Source of the DNA: Pantoea phytobeneficialis
Lineage (GTDB): Bacteria > Pseudomonadota > Gammaproteobacteria > Enterobacterales > Enterobacteriaceae
Length of the DNA stretch: 64,000 bases
NCBI RefSeq assembly: GCF_009728735.1
Contig: NZ_CP024636.1
Location: 2,309,720 to 2,373,719 of the forward strand
Reading direction: 5' to 3'
The first letter of the stretch is position 1. Each line of letters opens with the position of its first letter. Both the position numbers and the translations under genes were made by a program. Of this stretch, positions 1 through 9,084 are shown one piece after another. The notes below the pieces were generated by a model. It was not told where the DNA came from. It saw only the letters and a program-made list of their open reading frames with translations, and did no database searches.

Positions 1-677
1 CGTTCTGGTATCACTTCGCCATTCTGTTCGAAGCCTTGTTTATCCTTACCGCCGTGGACGCCGGTACGCGTGCCTGCCGTTTTATGGTGCAGGATTTGGT
101 CGGCACCGTGGTGCCTTCACTTGCCAATAACCGTTCATGGCTCGGCAATATGGCGGGAACCACCGTGGCTGTTGCGGGTTGGGGTTTCTTTGTCTATCAG
201 GGCGTGGTCGATCCCCTGGGCGGCATCAACACCTTGTGGCCATTGTTCGGTATTGGTAACCAGATGCTGGCGTCGATGGCGCTGATTCTCGGCACCGTGG
301 TGCTGTTTAAGATGAAGAAACAACGTTACGCGTGGGTGACGATTCTGCCAACTGCCTGGTTGTTTATCACCTCAATGACCGCCGGATGGCAAAAGATTTT
401 CCATGAAAAACCGTCGATTGGTTTCCTTGCCCAGGCGAATAAGTTCCGCAAAGGTCTGGATGAGGGCGTGATTATCGCACCCGCGAAAACCGTCGCTGAT
501 ATGCAAACCATCGTGTTCAGCAACCAGATTAACGCCCTGCTGTGCGGTTTCTTCATGCTGGTGGCCGTCACCATGTTGATCGCGGCCTTCTTTGTCATTC
601 GCCGTGCCCTGCGCAGTGACGTGCCGACCGTGCATGAGGCACCGGTGTCGCTGCGTAAGGAGGTGCGTAATGTCTGA
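1..677 (+). CDS. cstA: CstA-family pyruvate/peptide transporter, C-terminal part (5' end outside window)
   Basis: This is the 3' part of a large inner-membrane transporter gene; the reading frame is open from base 3 and the beginning lies outside the window. The visible 225 residues start with FWYHFAILFEALFILT, a conserved CstA/BtsT segment, continue with DAGTRACRFMVQDLVG, and contain several hydrophobic helices. CstA and BtsT are proton-coupled pyruvate or peptide uptake proteins induced on carbon starvation. The stop codon overlaps the start of the next gene (ATGTCTGA), so the two are translationally coupled. The same arrangement occurs in both cstA-ybdD and btsT-yjiX, so which paralogue this is cannot be settled from the fragment. 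Confidence 0.9.
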   Translation, partial: FWYHFAILFEALFILTAVDAGTRACRFMVQDLVGTVVPSLANNRSWLGNMAGTTVAVAGWGFFVYQGVVDPLGGINTLWPLFGIGNQMLASMALILGTVVLFKMKKQRYAWVTILPTAWLFITSMTAGWQKIFHEKPSIGFLAQANKFRKGLDEGVIIAPAKTVADMQTIVFSNQINALLCGFFMLVAVTMLIAAFFVIRRALRSDVPTVHEAPVSLRKEVRNV

Positions 678-954
678 GGCGATTTTAGCCTGGCGTAAAC
701 CGGCCGGGCGCTGGCAGATAAATCAGTGTCTGCCGCTGGGCGAGCCGCCGCGCACCCGCTGGCAAAAAATCTGGCGTGGCTTGCAGCAGAGCTTTCGCTT
801 AATGGTCGGCGTACACGATTATCAAAATTATCTACAGCATATGCGTCTGCATCATCCCGAACAGCCCCCGATGAGTGAACGCGAATTTTATCGTTACTGC
901 CTCGACGCCCGCTTTCCCAGCCAGCCAGGAAAATTGGGTAAGTGCCCGTGTTAA
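670..954 (+). CDS. ybdD: YbdD/YjiX-family small protein with extended N-terminus
   Basis: A 94-residue protein whose C-terminal half (from about residue 36, WRGLQQSFRLMVGVHDYQNY) matches the YbdD/YjiX family that always accompanies CstA/BtsT transporters; YbdD and YjiX of E. coli are only about 65-67 residues. The start ATG overlaps the transporter stop by eight bases, and an AGGAGG-like stretch inside the end of the transporter gene serves as ribosome site. The first 30 or so residues have no counterpart in the E. coli proteins. The C-terminal tail ends KCPC, like the CC-ending tails of the family. Function is unknown; it is thought to assist the transporter. Confidence 0.85.
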   Translation: MSEAILAWRKPAGRWQINQCLPLGEPPRTRWQKIWRGLQQSFRLMVGVHDYQNYLQHMRLHHPEQPPMSEREFYRYCLDARFPSQPGKLGKCPC

Positions 955-962
955 TCCTGTTT

Positions 963-988
963 AGCCCCAAATTTTTGGGGCTTTTTCG
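963..988 (+). terminator. Rho-independent terminator after cstA-ybdD
   Basis: A nine-base-pair stem AGCCCCAAA/TTTGGGGCT (963-971 with 974-982) is followed by a run of T. It lies nine bases after the ybdD stop. Confidence 0.85.
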
Positions 989-1110
989 TGCCATTCATTT
1001 ATCTAAACAAAAATATATTTGGATTGCATCTTGTGCTTACGCAAGAGGATGAATACTGTTGCTAAAATAATGAGATACCGCCTGCTGAGAACTCCCTGGA
1101 GGAAGTTTCC

Positions 1111-3096
1111 ATGACCGATGAACAAGGGCAAACGTTGCTATACACCTTGTTTGGCACCACCAGCCCTCATTGGCGTCTGACTGCGGACAGCGATGCTTTA
1201 CATTTTGCCGAAGAGGAAAATGCCCATACCAATCTGGCCGTTCCGCTAACCCCGGCACAGGCGAGTTTGTTGCGCGCCATGACCGTGATTACCTCCAGCA
1301 TCAACCTGACGCTGTCGCTGCATGGCGTACCGGTGCCGATGCATTTTGTCGGTCGTAAAGTGAACCAGGCGACGTGGGCAGGCACCGCATCAGCCTGGGG
1401 AGACACCTCTTCTGTCGCACGCGATTTGACGCTGGGCCTGTCGTTTGCTGAGCAAGTGGTTTCCGAGGCCAACTCGGTGATCGTTATCCTCGACCAACGA
1501 GGTAACATTCAACGTTTTAATCGGTTAAGTGAAGAATACACTGGCCTGAAAGAACACGAAGTGATTGGCCGTAATGTGTTCCAGCTATTCATGACCAAAC
1601 AGGAAGCCCAGGCCTCCCGCCGCAACATCGCCGGATTTTTTCGCGACGGCAACTCTTACGAAGTGGAACGCTGGATCAAAACCAAGAAAGGTCAGCGACT
1701 GTTTCTGTTTCGTAATAAGTTCGTTCACAGCGGCAGCGGAAAAAATGAAATTTTCCTCATCTGTTCAGGAACGGATATTACCGAGGAGCGCCGGGCCCAG
1801 GAGCGTCTGCGCGTGCTGGCCAACACCGATACGGTGACCGGGTTACCCAATCGCAATGCCATCCATCAGCAAATTAGTCTGGCACTTGAGACGGCGAAAG
1901 GCACGCAAACCGGCGTGGTGTATCTCGACTTAGACAATTTCAAGAAGGTGAATGACGCCTACGGGCACATGTTCGGTGACCAGTTACTTCAGGCGGTTTC
2001 GCTGGCGATCCTTAGCTGCCTCGGCAAAGATCAAACCCTGGCACGCCTCGGCGGTGACGAGTTTGTGGTACTGGCAGAAAATACCAGCCAGGCGGCGCTG
2101 GAAGCGATGGCTTCGCGGATCCTCGAACGGCTGCGTCAGCCTTTTCGCATCGGACTGATTGAGGTTTACAGCGGCTGCTCGCTTGGTATCGCCCTTGCCC
2201 CCTTGCATGGCGAAGACCGTGAAAGCCTGATCCGCAATGCCGATACCGCCATGTATCACGCCAAAGAAAATGGTCGCGGTAAGTTTTGCGTGTTTGCCAG
2301 CGAAATGAATCAACGCGTGTTTGAGTATCTGTGGCTGGATACCAATCTGCGTAAAGCCCTGGACCAGGATCACCTGGTGGTGTATTACCAACCGAAAATC
2401 GACCGTGATGGCGAGGTGCGCAGTGCCGAAGCGCTGGTACGCTGGAATTCGCCGGAGCGTGGCCTGGTGCCACCAGGTGATTTTATTGCTTATGCGGAAG
2501 AATCCGGGCTGATTGTGCCGCTGGGGCGCTGGGTGATGCTGAATGTGTTGCAGCAGGTGATTGCGTGGCGCAAAGAAGGGATCTGGTTGCGGGTGGCCGT
2601 GAATGTTTCAGCCAAGCAATTGATTGATCAGAGTATCTATAGCGATCTGAAGCAGGCCCTGATTGAGAGTGGCATCAAGGATTGCCCGATTGATATCGAA
2701 CTGACTGAAAGCTGCCTGATCGAAAACGAAGCCGATGCACTGAAACTAATGAAACAGTTTCAGGAGCTGGGGGCACAGGTGCATCTTGACGATTTCGGGA
2801 CCGGTTACTCTTCCCTGTCACAGTTGGCGCGAGTACCGATTGACGCCATCAAGCTGGACCAGAGTTTTATTCGTAATATCAATAAGCAACCGGTGGCACA
2901 GTCCCTGGTGCGTGCCATTATGGCTGTGGCCAAAGCCCTGGAGTTGCAGGTGATTGCCGAGGGTATTGAAACCAAAGCCGAAGAAAAATTTGTGATGGCT
3001 AACGGCGTCGATGGGCGTCAGGGTTATTTTTACGCAAAACCAATGCCCGCAGACCAGCTCGGGCATTGGCTGGCTAAGCATCCTGCCCGCGTTTAA
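1111..3096 (+). CDS. rpfR: RpfR/PdeR-type DSF-responsive c-di-GMP enzyme (FI-PAS-GGDEF-EAL)
   Basis: A 661-residue cytoplasmic protein, the same length as E. coli PdeR (YciR). It has an N-terminal region of about 95 residues where RpfR proteins carry the RpfF-interaction domain, a PAS domain (about 113-225), a GGDEF domain with intact RLGGDEF (314-318), and an EAL domain with EAL at 440-442. The downstream EAL signature residues are all present: VNVSAKQL, IELTES, DDFGTGYSSL, IKLDQSF, IAEGIE and QGYFYAKP. Both active sites therefore look competent. No RxxD inhibitory site precedes GGDEF. In Burkholderia and Cronobacter, RpfR binds the DSF fatty acid through PAS and lowers c-di-GMP. The convergent rpfF 15 bases downstream supports that role here rather than a plain PdeR. 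GGAGG stands before the ATG. Confidence 0.88.
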   Translation: MTDEQGQTLLYTLFGTTSPHWRLTADSDALHFAEEENAHTNLAVPLTPAQASLLRAMTVITSSINLTLSLHGVPVPMHFVGRKVNQATWAGTASAWGDTSSVARDLTLGLSFAEQVVSEANSVIVILDQRGNIQRFNRLSEEYTGLKEHEVIGRNVFQLFMTKQEAQASRRNIAGFFRDGNSYEVERWIKTKKGQRLFLFRNKFVHSGSGKNEIFLICSGTDITEERRAQERLRVLANTDTVTGLPNRNAIHQQISLALETAKGTQTGVVYLDLDNFKKVNDAYGHMFGDQLLQAVSLAILSCLGKDQTLARLGGDEFVVLAENTSQAALEAMASRILERLRQPFRIGLIEVYSGCSLGIALAPLHGEDRESLIRNADTAMYHAKENGRGKFCVFASEMNQRVFEYLWLDTNLRKALDQDHLVVYYQPKIDRDGEVRSAEALVRWNSPERGLVPPGDFIAYAEESGLIVPLGRWVMLNVLQQVIAWRKEGIWLRVAVNVSAKQLIDQSIYSDLKQALIESGIKDCPIDIELTESCLIENEADALKLMKQFQELGAQVHLDDFGTGYSSLSQLARVPIDAIKLDQSFIRNINKQPVAQSLVRAIMAVAKALELQVIAEGIETKAEEKFVMANGVDGRQGYFYAKPMPADQLGHWLAKHPARV

Positions 3097-3111
3097 CGCT
3101 GAACTGCGAGA

Positions 3112-3978
3112 TTATCCGGCTTTGCGCAAGGATGCGCTATGACGGTTTTGCAGTTGCACCAGACGTTCCATATAAGCAATGTCTTTCGGTTCCAGCGTGA
3201 AGGCATAATCCACCCAATCTTCCGTTATATCCATCAGTTCCGCCCTTGAGAGTTGCAACACGCGCTGACGTGCTTTAAGCATCGCCCGTATGCCATTCAG
3301 TTTGGGACGTAAAGTGTCGATGAAGGTGCGTGTAGTGCGATAGCTGTCACCAGGCTGGAACACTTTGTCGACCAGACCACGGGTTTCATACCACTCCGCG
3401 CTGTGTGACTCCCCTTCACAAATTAACTCTTCAGCCAGCTTCATCCCCGCGCGGCGCGCCACTAACGAGTATCCGCCCATGCCGGGGAACAGGTTAAACG
3501 CAATTTCCGGGAACCCCATGCGTGCGCTGTTTTGCGCCAGAATAAAGTGGTGCGCCAGGGCGGCTTCAAATCCTCCGCCGAGAGCACTACCCTCGATCAT
3601 TGCCAGCGTCACCGCGCCAGTATCAAAGCCTCGGGCGGCTGAATGGATGCAATCCACGCAGGCACGGGCGTAGGCACGCAGAGCTTCGCGCCGGTTGTTG
3701 CGAATGCATTCAACAAAGAAGCGTAAATCGCCCCCGGCGTTAAACATCTGAGGAACTAACGATCCCGTCACCCAGAAATCAATCGGTAAACCGGAACGCT
3801 GCGCCGCGTAGCTCAGGTTCATGATCTCTTCGATTAACTCGTGGTTGAAACTGGGTCGAGGTTGCGCCCGCAGCATCATCCACATGGTGTGACGCCCTTC
3901 TTCATAATAGGCAGCCAGTTGAGTGGTTTGTCCGACTTCGGTGAACAGTCGGCATGTCGGTTGGTTAATCACTGTCAT
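3112..3978 (-). CDS. rpfF: RpfF-type DSF synthase (crotonase family)
   Basis: A 288-residue crotonase-fold protein. RpfF enzymes act on acyl-carrier-protein substrates, dehydrating 3-hydroxyacyl-ACP and then releasing the cis-2-enoic acid by thioester cleavage, which gives the diffusible signal factor. The diagnostic block MIEGSALGGGFEAAL followed by MGFPEIAFNLFPGMG is present. Glu138 and Glu158 have the same 20-residue spacing as the two catalytic glutamates of Xanthomonas RpfF (141 and 161), and AGGDL at 81-85 fits the oxyanion region. An SD-like GAGGATGAG precedes the ATG. It converges on the c-di-GMP enzyme gene with only 15 bases between stops, the pairing seen for rpfF/rpfR in Burkholderia and Cronobacter. 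The chain length of the product cannot be predicted. Confidence 0.9.
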   Translation of the reverse strand: MTVINQPTCRLFTEVGQTTQLAAYYEEGRHTMWMMLRAQPRPSFNHELIEEIMNLSYAAQRSGLPIDFWVTGSLVPQMFNAGGDLRFFVECIRNNRREALRAYARACVDCIHSAARGFDTGAVTLAMIEGSALGGGFEAALAHHFILAQNSARMGFPEIAFNLFPGMGGYSLVARRAGMKLAEELICEGESHSAEWYETRGLVDKVFQPGDSYRTTRTFIDTLRPKLNGIRAMLKARQRVLQLSRAELMDITEDWVDYAFTLEPKDIAYMERLVQLQNRHSASLRKAG

Positions 3979-4081
3979 AGTCTCATCCTCTAGTTATGTG
4001 ATGCGTTAAACGCAATATCAGCGTAATCCAGAGTGAGGCCAGACCAAATGAGAGATTGATTTATAAAGCAAATTCCAGAGA

Positions 4082-4107
4082 TTTCCCCGACACAGGGGTC
4101 GGGGAAA
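4082..4107 (-). terminator. Hairpin after kdgT
   Basis: A ten-base-pair stem TTTCCCCGAC/GTCGGGGAAA with a six-base loop lies 11 bases past the kdgT stop. The T run behind it on the minus strand is weak, so termination is probable but may be incomplete, and some transcripts could read into rpfF. Confidence 0.6.
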
Positions 4108-4118
4108 GATTAGCGGGC

Positions 4119-5102
4119 TTACTTAATAGCGGCGCGTTGGCCCACCGCAGCATGAAAACGCTTAACGCGGCGTGAATAAAGCGCCGTAATGATCGGCACC
4201 AATACTGAAGTGACAATTACTGATGTGGCCACTAAAGCGGTGGCGGCAGGCGCAACCGGTTTAAACTGCGGCAGCATTTCGGCAATCAACACCGGTGTCG
4301 CTACCGCTGCACCAGCGGTGCTGGAGGCAGCAATACCCGCCGTACCATCGCCGCCACCAATCAAGCGATCCGCCAGGATTAACGGAATGCCGGTGATGAT
4401 GATGACCGTAACGCCAAGCAAAATACCGAGCAAACCGGTTTGGGCAATTACCGCTAAATCAATGGTGTTGCCGAGGGCAAAGGCAAAGAACGGAATCAGG
4501 GTGTGCACCGCCTTACCGAAAAACTCACGTAATTCAGGGTCAAGGTTGCCCAGGGCGAAGCCAACCAGGAATGGCAGAACTGCACCCACGAAGACGTGAG
4601 GTTCAAATGAGGCGATACCTGCGGTGCCCAGAATAACCATAGTCATCAGTGGTCCTGATTCGAGCGACATCAGCACAAACGCGCCCGCCTCCTCTTTCGA
4701 ACCATATTGCTGCATGATTGACGCGTACAGGCCACCATTGGTCATATCCATCGCCGCCACCAGCGCCAGGGTGGAAAGACCGGCGAACATGCCCACTTCA
4801 ACGCCATTTTCAGGCATGACGCGCGAGGCAATCGCAGCAACCACCCAGGCAACGGCGATTTTCGTTAATACCAGGGTGCCGGATTTACGCAGCACGGTAC
4901 CGGTGGCACTGAGTTTGATCGATGCCCCCATACAGAAGAACCACACCGCCAGAATTGGCACGGTGCCGGTCATTAATCCATTGGTAAAGGAACCAAAATA
5001 TTTGCCTGCGCCAGGGGAAAAGGTATGGCAAAGCGCGCCGAGAAACAGCGGGATCAACATCATACCGCCAGGAATTTTATCGATTGCACGTTTAATATGC
5101 AT
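4119..5102 (-). CDS. kdgT: 2-keto-3-deoxygluconate permease
   Basis: A 327-residue integral membrane protein with about ten hydrophobic segments that reads like KdgT throughout (start [19 protein letters not shown], internal [29 protein letters not shown]). KdgT is the proton symporter that takes up 2-keto-3-deoxygluconate, a product of pectin and polyuronate breakdown, which then enters the KdgK/KdgA route. No other kdg gene is in the window. A KdgR-like operator lies 111 bases upstream. The length equals the E. coli protein. Confidence 0.95.
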
Positions 5103-5210
5103 TTGAGTATCACCTGTACTAAGCCAGAGGGAGGTGCGTTATTTGTTGCCGTCAGGCATTACGGGCAAGATACCGGCTCACCACAGGCAAAAAAGTGATC
5201 GCAAATATAT

Positions 5211-5231
5211 TTATGAAACGTTGTTTTATTT
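5211..5231 (-). promoter_or_regulatory. KdgR-like operator upstream of kdgT
   Basis: ATGAAAC-GTT-GTTTTAT (5213-5229) is an inverted repeat with one mismatch and matches the known KdgR box core (ATGAAAC, short spacer, GTTTCAT). It sits in an A+T-rich stretch 111 bases before the kdgT start, as expected for pectin-regulon control. The match is by eye only. Confidence 0.6.
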
Positions 5232-5291
5232 TTATTGGATTATCATTTTATTTTTTGATCAGCGTCGCCATACCAGTTGGTTGAAGGCAAC

Positions 5292-5313
5292 AAAAAAGGC
5301 GCCAGATGGCGCC
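5292..5313 (-). terminator. Rho-independent terminator after araD-like gene
   Basis: Read on the minus strand, GGCGCC-ATCT-GGCGCC is followed directly by six T residues. It starts 34 bases past the stop codon of the epimerase gene. Confidence 0.85.
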
Positions 5314-5346
5314 TGAAAGAGCTGCGCGATCAAGCGCGCCTGTTTA

Positions 5347-6045
5347 TCACTTCTGCCCATACCAGGCGTTTTTGCCGTGTTTGCGCAGGTAATGCAGATC
5401 AAGCAACGTTTGCGAAATCGGTGGGAGTGCCTGGTGTAGTTGCTCGGTATGCAACGCCATATATGCGACCTCCTCCAGCACCACCGCGCTGTGCACTGCC
5501 GCATCCGCATCTTTCCCCCAGGCAAAAGGGCCATGCGAATTCACCAGCACCGCCGGAATCGCGGTGGGCGATATTTCGCGCTTAGCGAAGGTTTCGATAA
5601 TCACCTGTCCGGTATTCCACTCATATTCCTGCTCGATTTCTTCACGCTGCATAGCCCGTGTGCAAGGAATGGTGCCGTAAAAATCATCCGCATGAGTGGT
5701 GCCCCAGGCGAGAATATCCCGCCCTGCCTGCGCCCAGATGGCAGCATGACGTGAATGGGTATGGACTATGCCGCCAATATCCGGCCAGGCGAGGTACAGC
5801 GCGCGATGGGTGGCAGTGTCAGATGAGGGGCGCATCTTACCCTCGACCACTTTCCCGCTTTCCAGCTCCACCACCACCATATCGTCACGTTTCATATCAA
5901 CGTACTTCACCCCGGAAGGTTTGATCACCAGCAGACCGCTTTCACGATCGAGGGCACTGACATTGCCCCAGGTAAAGGTCACCAGGTTATAACGTGGCAG
6001 ATCCAGATTGGCTTCCAGCACCTGTTGTTTCAGCGCTTCCAGCAT
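5347..6045 (-). CDS. araD: L-ribulose-5-phosphate 4-epimerase (AraD/SgbE/UlaF family)
   Basis: A 232-residue class II aldolase-fold enzyme converting L-ribulose 5-phosphate to D-xylulose 5-phosphate. Visible family marks are [32 protein letters not shown], the zinc-binding [21 protein letters not shown] and [11 protein letters not shown], ending [13 protein letters not shown]. The start at 6045 was chosen because [17 protein letters not shown] aligns with the E. coli AraD start and has GGGAG just upstream; the frame stays open 17 codons further up. It stands alone, without araBA or ula genes, so whether it serves arabinose, ascorbate or another pentose route is open. Confidence 0.9.
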
Positions 6046-6348
6046 GTTTTTTCTCCCGTTAGATGTGATGGAGAAATTGTGCAAAGCCTGGCGCAAAAGC
6101 GTTATGGAAGGAATCGCTGTAAAAGCTGCTGAAAGTGGCTGAGGGCGTAAAAATGTGGCGTGAATTCGGAGTTTTCCATCTTCGGAAAAATCCCGTAATG
6201 ATTAGACTGTCTCCAGCCAACCACGGGACGATTTTATTGCCCGGTGATGCGGCTATCACGCTGTTTTTGCATGCGGGCTGCGGATTGCAGGCTCAGGGAT
6301 GAGAACCGTTATGAAACCACAGGGTGAAACGATTGCAGGAAACAACAC

Positions 6349-6358
6349 CTATACTTAA
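6349..6358 (+). promoter_or_regulatory. Sigma-S type -10 element of osmB
   Basis: CTATACTTAA stands 37 bases before the osmB start codon and matches the extended -10 preferred by RpoS (CTATACT). osmB is a known osmotic and stationary-phase gene under RpoS and Rcs control in E. coli. No clear RcsB box was recognised. Confidence 0.55.
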
Positions 6359-6394
6359 AAGGTTGTCCCTGTATGTACAATCAAGGAGAAGTTT

Positions 6395-6610
6395 ATGACA
6401 ACAACAATGAAACGTCTGACCGCCGCCGTGCTGGCTACCACCCTGGTTATTGCCCTGAGCGGTTGTTCAAACTGGTCCAAGCGTGACCGCAATACCGCGA
6501 TTGGTGCGGGTGCGGGTGCAATTGGCGGTTCTATTCTGACTAACGGAAGCGCATTGGGCACCATTGGTGGTGCTGCTGTTGGTGGCATTATCGGCCATCA
6601 GGTTCATTAA
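6395..6610 (+). CDS. osmB: Osmotically inducible lipoprotein OsmB
   Basis: A 71-residue lipoprotein precursor. A signal peptide ends in the lipobox LSGC with lipid-anchoring Cys24, followed by SNWSKRDRNTAIGAGAGAIGG, near identical to E. coli OsmB. The rest is glycine-rich (glycine-zipper-like GGAAVGGIIGHQ). It is an outer-membrane-associated protein of unknown exact role, induced by osmotic stress and stationary phase. A good AAGGAG ribosome site precedes the ATG. It is convergent with yciH, as in E. coli. Confidence 0.95.
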   Translation: MTTTMKRLTAAVLATTLVIALSGCSNWSKRDRNTAIGAGAGAIGGSILTNGSALGTIGGAAVGGIIGHQVH

Positions 6611-6655
6611 TTCCGACTACATAACAAAAGGCTTACGCAGCGCATCTACATAAAC

Positions 6656-6676
6656 AGGCCACTCACCGAGTGGCCT
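6656..6676 (-). terminator. Hairpin between osmB and yciH
   Basis: AGGCCACT/AGTGGCCT is a strong stem with a five-base loop, eight bases past the yciH stop. The tail on the minus strand is GTTTATG and on the plus strand GGTCATTT, so it may act in both directions, imperfectly. Confidence 0.6.
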
Positions 6677-6683
6677 GGTCATT

Positions 6684-7007
6684 TCAACCGCCAGCCAGTT
6701 TGACCTTCATGCCTTTAGCTTCAAGCAGCGATTTCAACAGGTCGCGCTTATCGCCCTGAATCTCAATCACGCCGTCTTTCACCGCCCCACCGCAACCGCA
6801 TTTTTTCTTCAGTTCGGCGGCCAGTTTGGTCAGCGCGTCATCATCGAGATCGACACCGGTGATCAGGCAAACACCTTTACCTTTACGACCACTGGTCTGA
6901 CGTTGAATACGTACGATGCCATCGCCTTTCGGGCGTACAGCTTTCTCTTCGGTTGGCGTAATGCGGCCGGTTTCGGTGGAGTAAACCAGCGGATTGTCCT
7001 GAGCCAT
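6684..7007 (-). CDS. yciH: Translation-initiation-factor-like protein YciH (SUI1/eIF1 family)
   Basis: A 107-residue SUI1-fold protein. The core from about residue 30 reads GIVRIQRQTSGRKGKGVCLITG and then LKKKCGCGGAVKDGVIEIQGD, the standard eIF1/YciH signature. In E. coli, YciH influences start-site fidelity of translation and is linked to stress inhibition of translation. Its ATG overlaps the pyrF stop by one base (TAATG), so the pair is translationally coupled. Confidence 0.96.
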   Translation of the reverse strand: MAQDNPLVYSTETGRITPTEEKAVRPKGDGIVRIQRQTSGRKGKGVCLITGVDLDDDALTKLAAELKKKCGCGGAVKDGVIEIQGDKRDLLKSLLEAKGMKVKLAGG

Positions 7008-7714
7008 TAGCCCTCCTGTAAACTTTGCAGAATCTGTTGCAGGGTGGCGGCAGGATCGGCAGATTGGGTGATCGGACGCCCAATTACCATATAATCCACC
7101 CCTGCCTGCTGCGCCTGCTGTGGCGTCATGATACGACGCTGATCACCCGCGTCACTGCCTGCCGGACGAATTCCTGGTGTCACCAGCTTAAAGTCTTTGC
7201 CAATCACCTGTTTGAAATGTGCCGCTTCCTGTGCGGAGCACACCACGCCGTCAAGGCCACAGTCACGCGTCAGGCATGCCAGACGTTCGGCCTGTGCCGC
7301 AGGAGACAAGGTAATACCAAGCCCTTTCAGATCCTCTTCATCCATGCTGGTGAGTACGGTGACCGCAATCAGCAACGGCGCATCTTTACCGTACGACACC
7401 AGCGCCTCACGCGCTGCGTTCATCATGCGTGCCCCACCACTGGCGTGAACGTTAACCATCCATACGCCAAGGTCTGCTGCCGCCGCAACCGCATGCGCCG
7501 TGGTGTTCGGGATATCGTGGAATTTCAGATCGAGGAAGATTTCGAAACCACGATCCTGCAACGTTTTCACCAGCGTTGGCCCAAACAACGTGAACATCTC
7601 TTTGCCCACTTTCAGGCGGCATTGGCTCGGGTCGATGCGATCAACAAATTGCAGTGCGCTGTCGAGATTATGATAGTCGAGTGCCACCAGAATAGGTGAA
7701 GTGGTAACAGGCAT
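7007..7714 (-). CDS. pyrF: Orotidine 5'-phosphate decarboxylase
   Basis: A 235-residue TIM-barrel enzyme for the last step of UMP synthesis. The active-site motif [12 protein letters not shown] supplies the catalytic Asp-Lys-Asp set, with VALDY near the start and the phosphate-binding VTPGIRP and YMVIGRPIT near the end. Length and sequence match enteric PyrF. It is the first gene of a pyrF-yciH pair. The 200 bases upstream, before the lapB stop, should carry its own promoter. Confidence 0.98.
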
Positions 7715-7899
7715 AACGTTTCCTCAGTTACAGGCACCCGCAGGCGCGTTAGACAAACGGCAAGCATTCTACCTGCGCGACCTGATGACGACAATCACGG
7801 TGCCAGGATTTGTAACCTGTTTGACCGAACCCTGCACGATGCTGGAATGAATAAATAGTTTAGATTTCTAGTATGTTGTAACTATAAAATGACTTTTTT

Positions 7900-7926
7900 T
7901 AGAAAAGACGGCCGTTATTGGCCGTC
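7900..7926 (-). terminator. Terminator overlapping the lapB stop codon
   Basis: On the minus strand GACGGCC-AATAAC-GGCCGTC is followed by TTTTCTAAAAAAAG. The lapB stop (7915-7917) lies in the loop, so the hairpin includes the last codons of the gene. Confidence 0.7.
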
Positions 7927-9084
7927 AAGTCCACGAATCGGTTTCACCGAAGACCAGGTGCGGCAGGAAGGACAATGCCAGTACAACGCATGCGCAGTGA
8001 AACCACATTTCTGGCAGCGATAGCGCGGCTTGGTGCGGATTTGCTCCCCCACCATATCGCGTAACACCATCAGACTCTCTTTTGCCCGACCATCTTCAGC
8101 TTCATGCAGGTGAAAATCCATTAAACGATGGAAAACCCGCATCGTCGGATGACGTTGCAACTGGCGATTAATATAGAGTTGCGCCGCTTCCGGGCCTTGT
8201 TGTTGTTCAAGGATATCGGCGAGATAGAGTTCAGCGACCGCTCCGGTATTCTCATCCACGCAACGTTGCAGGAATTGCGCCCATTGTTCGGGCTGATCCA
8301 GGCGCTGATAACACGTTTCGAGCATTGGCAAGGCTTCACTGACCAACTCTTTATCCTGTTCCAGCACCCGTTGTAAACGTTCGACCGCTTTTGCGTATTC
8401 GCCCTGCTCCATAAAAATGCGGCCGGTCATTATCGACACGCGCGCACTTTGACGATCCGCCGCCTCACCTTTTTTCAGCAGCGTCATGGCCCGTTCAAGA
8501 TCGTCACTGCTGAGTGCCTGCAAAGCGAGTTCGCAGTAGAAATGGGCAATTTCGCCTTTCTGCTTGTCCTTTCCCAGCTTGACCAGTTTTTCCGCCACTT
8601 CAATGGCCTGCTGCCAGTCACTGGTTGCCTGGTGGATCAGCAGCAGTTGCTGCAACGCACCGATACGAAAATCCGTCTCATCCACCAGCTGGCTAAACAT
8701 ATCTTCTGCGCGGTCATACAAACCAGCCGCCATATAATCGCGGCCAAGTTGTTGCACCGCCAGCAGACGCTGGTCATAACTGAGCGATGCACTTTCCATC
8801 AGGGATTGGTGAATGCGGATGGCGCGGTCAACTTCGCCGCGTGAACGGAACAGGTTACCCAGGGTGAGATGGGCTTCGACCGTGCCGCTGTCTTCTTTCA
8901 ACATGTCGAGGAAGAGATCAACGGCTTTGTCCTGCTGATTGGACAGCAGGAAGTTAACCCCCGCAACGTATTCACGCGACAGGCGATTGGCTTCCTGTTG
9001 CTTATCCTGTTGCGCACTGCGTCGGCCCATATACCAACCATACGCCGCAGCCACAGGAAGAAGCAGAAACAGCAATTCAAGCAT
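7915..9084 (-). CDS. lapB: Lipopolysaccharide assembly protein LapB
   Basis: A 389-residue inner-membrane protein, the same length as E. coli LapB (YciM). One N-terminal transmembrane helix (LLFLLLPVAAAYGWYMGRR) is followed by cytoplasmic TPR repeats (about 35-330) and a C-terminal rubredoxin-like metal site with CQKC and CPSC. LapB passes LpxC to the FtsH protease and so limits lipid A synthesis. It follows lapA with six bases between, forming the conserved lapAB operon. Confidence 0.97.
   Translation of the reverse strand: MLELLFLLLPVAAAYGWYMGRRSAQQDKQQEANRLSREYVAGVNFLLSNQQDKAVDLFLDMLKEDSGTVEAHLTLGNLFRSRGEVDRAIRIHQSLMESASLSYDQRLLAVQQLGRDYMAAGLYDRAEDMFSQLVDETDFRIGALQQLLLIHQATSDWQQAIEVAEKLVKLGKDKQKGEIAHFYCELALQALSSDDLERAMTLLKKGEAADRQSARVSIMTGRIFMEQGEYAKAVERLQRVLEQDKELVSEALPMLETCYQRLDQPEQWAQFLQRCVDENTGAVAELYLADILEQQQGPEAAQLYINRQLQRHPTMRVFHRLMDFHLHEAEDGRAKESLMVLRDMVGEQIRTKPRYRCQKCGFTAHALYWHCPSCRTWSSVKPIRGLDGQ

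Follow-up and report, generated by a model that had tools for sequence, protein, structure and literature searches.

The stretch of Pantoea DNA analysed here (the window, 64,000 nucleotides) very probably carries a complete quorum-sensing module of the Burkholderia/Cronobacter RpfF/RpfR type. The RpfF/RpfR (BDSF) system has been described previously in Burkholderia and Cronobacter, and the kind of system is not new; what is added here is the comparison of the receptor with the presence of rpfF across genomes. That comparison, made on sequences, suggests that receptors in genomes without the synthase gene are prone to lose the parts that bind the signal. On balance we lean towards the reading that RpfR/PdeR acts as a signal receptor only as long as the synthase gene adjoins it, rpfF having been lost repeatedly in the Enterobacteriaceae, after which the DSF pocket and the FI docking domain wear and the c-di-GMP enzyme stays intact.

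The rpfR/rpfF pair and its proteins

The original prediction of convergent rpfR and rpfF genes with 15 bases between their stop codons was borne out by the open reading frame calls (Table 1). Across its first 9 kb the window shares 99.05% identity with Pantoea sp. AS-PWVM4 (L187), which makes its source a Pantoea of this or a very closely related species. YjiX (Pfam Sel_put) lies to the left of the pair and KdgT, followed by an AraD-type epimerase, to the right (Pfam/NCBIfam). The left flank presumably also carries a cstA-like 3′ end, and from the translations we take yciH and pyrF to be further right-hand neighbours. In E. coli K-12, four annotated genes separate pdeR from yciH-pyrF, and rnb lies on the other side of pdeR.

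Table 1. Features of the rpfR/rpfF pair, in window coordinates.
Feature	Position	Strand	Remarks
rpfR (pdeR homologue), FI-PAS-GGDEF-EAL receptor enzyme	1111..3096	+	661 aa; intact ORF
FI (RpfF-interaction) domain, RpfR residues 1-95	1111..1395	+	6dga match, E 5.7e-28
PAS domain, RpfR residues 115-224	1453..1782	+	6dgg match, E 7.7e-58
BDSF-contact codons S169, N172, Y183, R187, N202	1615-1617, 1624-1626, 1657-1659, 1669-1671, 1714-1716	+	role from PMC6361424
GGDEF domain, RpfR residues 236-392	1816..2286	+	motif at 2050-2064; without RxxD I-site
EAL phosphodiesterase domain, RpfR residues 410-650	2338..3060	+	catalytic motifs intact
Gap between rpfR and rpfF stop codons	3097..3111	.	15 nt; terminator-like site absent
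rpfF, DSF (BDSF-type) synthase, crotonase fold	3112..3978	-	288 aa; homology-based
rpfF catalytic codons E138, E158	3565-3567, 3505-3507	-	

All four domains of the predicted RpfR/PdeR-type architecture were found, in the order FI-PAS-GGDEF-EAL. Pfam recognised PAS, GGDEF and EAL, and the FI domain emerged from a search of PDB sequences, in which RpfR residues 1-95 matched residues 1-95 of 6dga from end to end; 6dga was the sole match to this part at E up to 1. Dissimilarity of these residues to known FI domains had been named in advance as part of the ground for rejecting the rpfR/rpfF identification; similarity was found, and the identification was not refuted on this count. The PAS domain matched the RpfR PAS chain 6dgg, the GGDEF-EAL part matched many solved enzymes, and the whole protein passed the NCBIfam PdeR equivalog NF007474 (1206.9 bits; cut-off 782). 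Residue 305, where we would expect the Arg of an I-site RxxD, is Gly in the window RpfR and is Arg in 0 of 138 RpfR/PdeR proteins, in agreement with the claimed absence of an I-site. To judge from their catalytic motifs, which are intact, both GGDEF and EAL look active, as had been proposed (GGDEF at 314-318, EAL at 440, ELTE at 530, DDFGTGYSS at 560, KLD at 581, AEGIE at 616 and QGY at 637). In the C. turicensis RpfR structure BDSF is held by S169, N172, Y183, R187 and N202 (PMC6361424), and all five are kept at the same numbers in the window RpfR.

RpfF residues 4-285 match the RpfF structures 6dgn and 5fus (B. cenocepacia; PMC6361424) at E about 1e-129. Glu138 and Glu158, with their 20-residue spacing the basis for predicting an RpfF-type DSF synthase, are both present and are kept in 96/96 full-length RpfF proteins of the family. 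The same is true of F44 and F88, the two Phe of RpfF that shift in the complex (PMC6361424). The score of the window RpfF lies below the cut-off of the NCBIfam RpfF equivalog NF053515 (177.1; cut-off 550), which bars filing it as a Xanthomonas-branch RpfF but not as a Burkholderia-type RpfF: NF053515 seems to describe the Xanthomonas type, because the nearest solved structure here is B. cenocepacia RpfF. The broader crotonase model NF006452 accepts the protein (411; cut-off 177) and labels it only "crotonase/enoyl-CoA hydratase family protein", so that automatic annotation can easily overlook this branch of BDSF synthases. A more distant match, at E 2.9e-43, is the "RpfF protein" of 3m6m, which we take to come from Xanthomonas. 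The Xanthomonas RpfF/RpfC/RpfG system has a related DSF synthase, and there the signal is received by a hybrid histidine kinase paired with an HD-GYP regulator (PMC4698668).

The pair had been likened to those of Burkholderia and Cronobacter, and it shares their proteins, domains and key residues. RpfF and RpfR of B. cenocepacia are 64.6% and 56.2% identical to those of the window, and their genes have the same convergent layout, as PMC6361424 states and as we saw directly in the B. cenocepacia record; GtrR and BerB are partners in the Burkholderia system. Cronobacter turicensis, a relative within the Enterobacterales, is the source of the FI and PAS crystal structures; mutation of either gene raises c-di-GMP there, and the outputs studied are biofilm, proteolysis and virulence (PMC4698668).

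Every checked sequence element of the circuit is kept in the window proteins, which are therefore best read as forming that circuit here too. By analogy, RpfF would dehydrate 3-hydroxyacyl-ACP and cleave the thioester to give a free cis-2-enoic acid, most likely cis-2-dodecenoic acid (BDSF), and the FI domain of RpfR would dock on RpfF and restrain signal synthesis. We infer the product, the direction of the c-di-GMP effect and the FI-RpfF contact from relatives, where BDSF produced by RpfF is bound by PAS and boosts phosphodiesterase activity, and where FI acts as an inhibitor of RpfF (PMC6361424). The net effect on c-di-GMP had been called open; it is less open than that, as c-di-GMP in C. 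turicensis was 3.9-fold up in an rpfR mutant and 3.4-fold up in an rpfF mutant (PMC4698668), and RpfR of B. cenocepacia acts on balance as a phosphodiesterase and can also make c-di-GMP when its EAL domain is inactivated (PMC9684580).

According to PMC4698668, a biosensor detected no signal from wild-type C. turicensis. For P. agglomerans 299R with an empty vector, Table 1 of PMC4958263 gives a weak ion at the BDSF mass (635 counts, against 1460 with added RpfF), and the text of that paper reports the ion only with XfRpfF and absent from empty-vector 299R. A native rpfF could account for the empty-vector ion, if 299R carries one. Two named P. agglomerans records (L208, L213) contain rpfF, and this species should not be taken for granted as a surrogate host free of the signal in DSF studies.

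Distribution and spacing of the pair

Among 394 genomes of the order (thresholds E up to 1e-40 for RpfF and 1e-160 for RpfR), RpfF was found in 30, of which 21 belong to the window's family and the other 9, with distant proteins (34-38% identical), to another family, and RpfR in 25, all in the window's family. One of the nine other-family genomes has its distant RpfF beside another gene (L025, 1429-2313 and 2414-3781); this neighbour is presumably hybrid-kinase-like with receiver and Hpt-like parts, a layout that we take to resemble Xanthomonas RpfF/RpfC. The survey of 392 genomes of the window's family (rpfF at E up to 1e-80) gave rpfF in 99 and rpfR in 140, 3 of the latter partial; 41 had rpfR without rpfF. 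Each of the 99 rpfF genomes had rpfR on the same contig and convergent, rpfF never occurring without rpfR, and among 317 confirmed loci in named genomes, of which 80 were kept, rpfR was convergent in 80/80. Because all 99 rpfF genomes of the survey and all 80 kept loci have it, the pairing is beyond chance. A 2026 review also lists Pantoea among the genera with RpfF homologues (PMC12838280). Two further sequences were noted: a second full-length rpfF in one genome, 72% identical to the window's and about 283 kb from rpfR (G629:C7:1005864-1006727), and a crotonase on an E. coli plasmid, 29.6% identical over 86% of the RpfF query (NZ_CP060058.1, 22295-23044).

The spacing of the pair varied. The distance between the two matches was at most 137 nt in 91/99 genomes, 317 and 395 nt in two, and 1.4-6.3 kb in six; in the 96 genomes with both genes readable in full the spacing ranged from -4 to 6267 nt, the stop codons overlapping by 4 nt in 35. 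The three widely spaced loci that were read have unrelated genes between rpfR and rpfF with the pair still convergent (L176, 2889-8494; L177, 2443-3795; L074, 2357-3523). We take the inserted genes to be a fimbrial operon in the first, a small decarboxylase-like gene with a LysR regulator in the second and a kinase-like gene in the third.

These distances bear on the suggestion that the layout is chiefly an antisense device, in which the two transcripts control one another through their overlapping 3′ ends and the protein circuit takes second place. The gap of only 15 nt in the window and the 4-nt overlap of stop codons elsewhere favour it, as does the position of terminator-like sites, which are absent on the + strand from the rpfR stop up to 5200 and on the - strand come nearest past the rpfF stop at 2101; the terminator scan as a whole, however, was near its shuffle background (8 found; mean 5.7, sd 1.7) and therefore carries little information. 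Against it stand the variable spacing, the genes inserted in the three loci read and the 8/99 genomes with more than 300 nt between the matches, and we consider this explanation very unlikely. The predicted transcript overlap is plausible in the window, and where stop codons overlap a few bases of it are unavoidable, but it is no conserved requirement, and the variable spacing rules it out as the conserved purpose of the layout. A search of window positions 1-9000 against Rfam gave no family at the gathering score, and so no known RNA element.

Receptors with and without rpfF

Receptors from the 99 rpfF-bearing genomes were compared with 39 from genomes lacking rpfF (38 from the family survey, together with K-12 PdeR). 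All five pocket residues were unchanged in 99/99 of the former and in 17/39 of the latter, leaving 22/39 altered; in the named rpfF loci S/N/Y/R/N was kept in 80/80. Changes in the rpfF-less receptors fell at S169 (to Ala in 7), N172 (11), Y183 (2) and R187 (to Leu in 3, including K-12 PdeR), with none at N202. As the B. cenocepacia record has Phe at the position of the window's Y183, a change there alone is weak evidence. Ala mutants at the residues matching S169, N172, R187 and N202 raised c-di-GMP in B. cenocepacia (PMC6361424), and the natural S169A is one of these tested substitutions. The catalytic positions GGDEF (314-318), EAL (440-442), D560, D561, K581 and Q637 were kept in both groups, except for one A441S among the rpfF-bearing receptors. 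On the gene tree, 10 pocket changes map to rpfF-less branches; at site 169, two reconstructions are equally short, and one of them also places one S-to-A and one A-to-S change on deeper rpfF-bearing branches.

The same pattern was seen for whole domains. Positions invariant among rpfF-bearing receptors were broken in at least one rpfF-less receptor at 8/15 positions of FI, 22/59 of PAS and 16/129 of GGDEF+EAL (Fisher test against GGDEF+EAL, p 0.0006 for FI and 0.0002 for PAS). As a control, 39 or slightly more rpfF-bearing genomes were withheld by genus, 1000 times. The broken fraction of FI was 0.53, compared with a hold-out mean of 0.11 and maximum of 0.29, and that of PAS 0.37, compared with 0.06 and 0.13; the catalytic fraction, 0.12, lay within the hold-out range (mean 0.09, maximum 0.17; 66/1000 as high). 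Relative to the catalytic part, the FI value was reached in 0/1000 hold-outs and the PAS value in 1/1000.

Branch-rate tests agree in direction, and the effect is smaller when the control is local. With all rpfF-bearing branches as control, the FI rate on loss stems was 4.21, compared with 1.29 in matched draws. With rpfF-bearing branches of the same clade as control, all rpfF-less branches gave 3.59 vs 2.54 for FI (0/20000 draws as high) and 1.11 vs 0.74 for PAS (4/20000), and the loss stems alone gave 3.70 vs 2.41 for FI (23/20000) and a non-significant 1.05 vs 0.80 for PAS (2692/20000). The loss clade lay above its rpfF-bearing sister in 9/12 clades for FI and 10/12 for PAS. An independent-pairs test found only 3 pairs on well-supported branches, a number at which significance is unreachable; the pocket state never ran the other way. 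Within genera (22 with rpfF, 7 without), median dN over catalytic dS was 0.056 with rpfF and 0.095 without for FI (p 0.14), and 0.014 and 0.019 for PAS (p 0.20), neither difference being significant; FI in rpfF-less genera remains under purifying selection, and hence its constraint is relaxed, not abandoned.

We infer that the direction of change was loss of rpfF, not gain, with 10 to 12 losses depending on the gene tree. Searches with tblastn of about 3.5 kb past rpfR in each of the 38 rpfF-less loci gave no rpfF remnant at E 1e-2. When one of these genomes (G188) was aligned with a same-genus genome by blastn in pieces, about 57 nt from the 3′ end of rpfF seemed to be left, which suggests a near-precise deletion. 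Two genomes (G687 and G749) carry rpfF only in part. Single-genome losses within otherwise rpfF-bearing genera numbered five, and the pocket was intact in three (G188, G633, G743). Among the titles and abstract starts searched, most subscription journals being outside the scope, we found no paper on decay of the pocket or FI in rpfF-less genomes, and prior notice is possible.

E. coli PdeR and the role of the receptor

PdeR of E. coli K-12 (YciR, Gmr) is homologous to RpfR, has its domains in the same order and keeps the GGDEF and EAL motifs intact, but it has no adjacent rpfF and has Leu at Arg187. It is closer to the window RpfR than is the B. cenocepacia protein in the other domains (70-81% vs 56-61% identity) and less close in FI (40% vs 51%, residues outside the local alignment being counted as different). 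The claim that E. coli has the pdeR gene with no rpfF beside it held: none is annotated in the K-12 neighbourhood, tblastn of RpfF on 13 kb around K-12 pdeR gave no match, and E. coli has been described as without a DSF synthase (PMC6361424). A two-gene DNA query matched 5372/5426 E. coli genomes, the five matches listed being pdeR, and reached 80% coverage in 0/5426, in a DNA search that a diverged rpfF could escape. The small ORF YmiD (L178, 5648-5776), which overlaps the 3′ end of K-12 pdeR on the opposite strand, in the place of rpfF, was considered as an rpfF remnant and rejected, its sequence and a sensitive tblastn showing no relation.

E. coli PdeR offers another explanation, namely that RpfR is mainly a PdeR "trigger enzyme" acting on curli via DgcM, MlrA and CsgD, and that the neighbouring RpfF is a metabolic crotonase with no connection to it. 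The window RpfR does pass the PdeR equivalog model, and the window's genome encodes an MlrA-like protein (55% identity). Searches of that genome nevertheless yielded neither CsgD (E 1e-20) nor DgcM (E 1e-55), so that membership of the PdeR cascade, with DgcM as partner and CsgD as target, failed there at these thresholds; RpfF is nearest to a BDSF synthase, RpfR keeps its FI domain and PAS pocket, and rpfF is paired with rpfR in 99/99 genomes. We therefore give this explanation very little credence. In 44 genomes, one each for 44 of the 46 rpfR-bearing genera, CsgD was found in 28 (18/32 with rpfF, 10/12 without), DgcM in 12 (6/32 and 6/12) and an MlrA-like protein in 43. Since neither CsgD nor DgcM was found in the Pantoea genome, the output of the RpfF/RpfR circuit there probably differs from the E. 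coli PdeR curli pathway.

An intact BDSF-type circuit is thus placed in a Pantoea genome in which CsgD and DgcM were not found. If the reading of a receptor dependent on its adjoining synthase gene is true, the window's RpfR shows the ancestral state, and E. coli PdeR, instead of being a conserved DSF sensor, would be a DSF receptor that was orphaned and became a trigger enzyme blind to the signal. The pocket residues may then predict which PdeR proteins can or cannot bind BDSF. For E. coli PdeR, Waldron et al. speculated that the fatty acid sensed is C12:0 (PMC6361424), and the comparative result makes it testable whether this protein senses any fatty acid.
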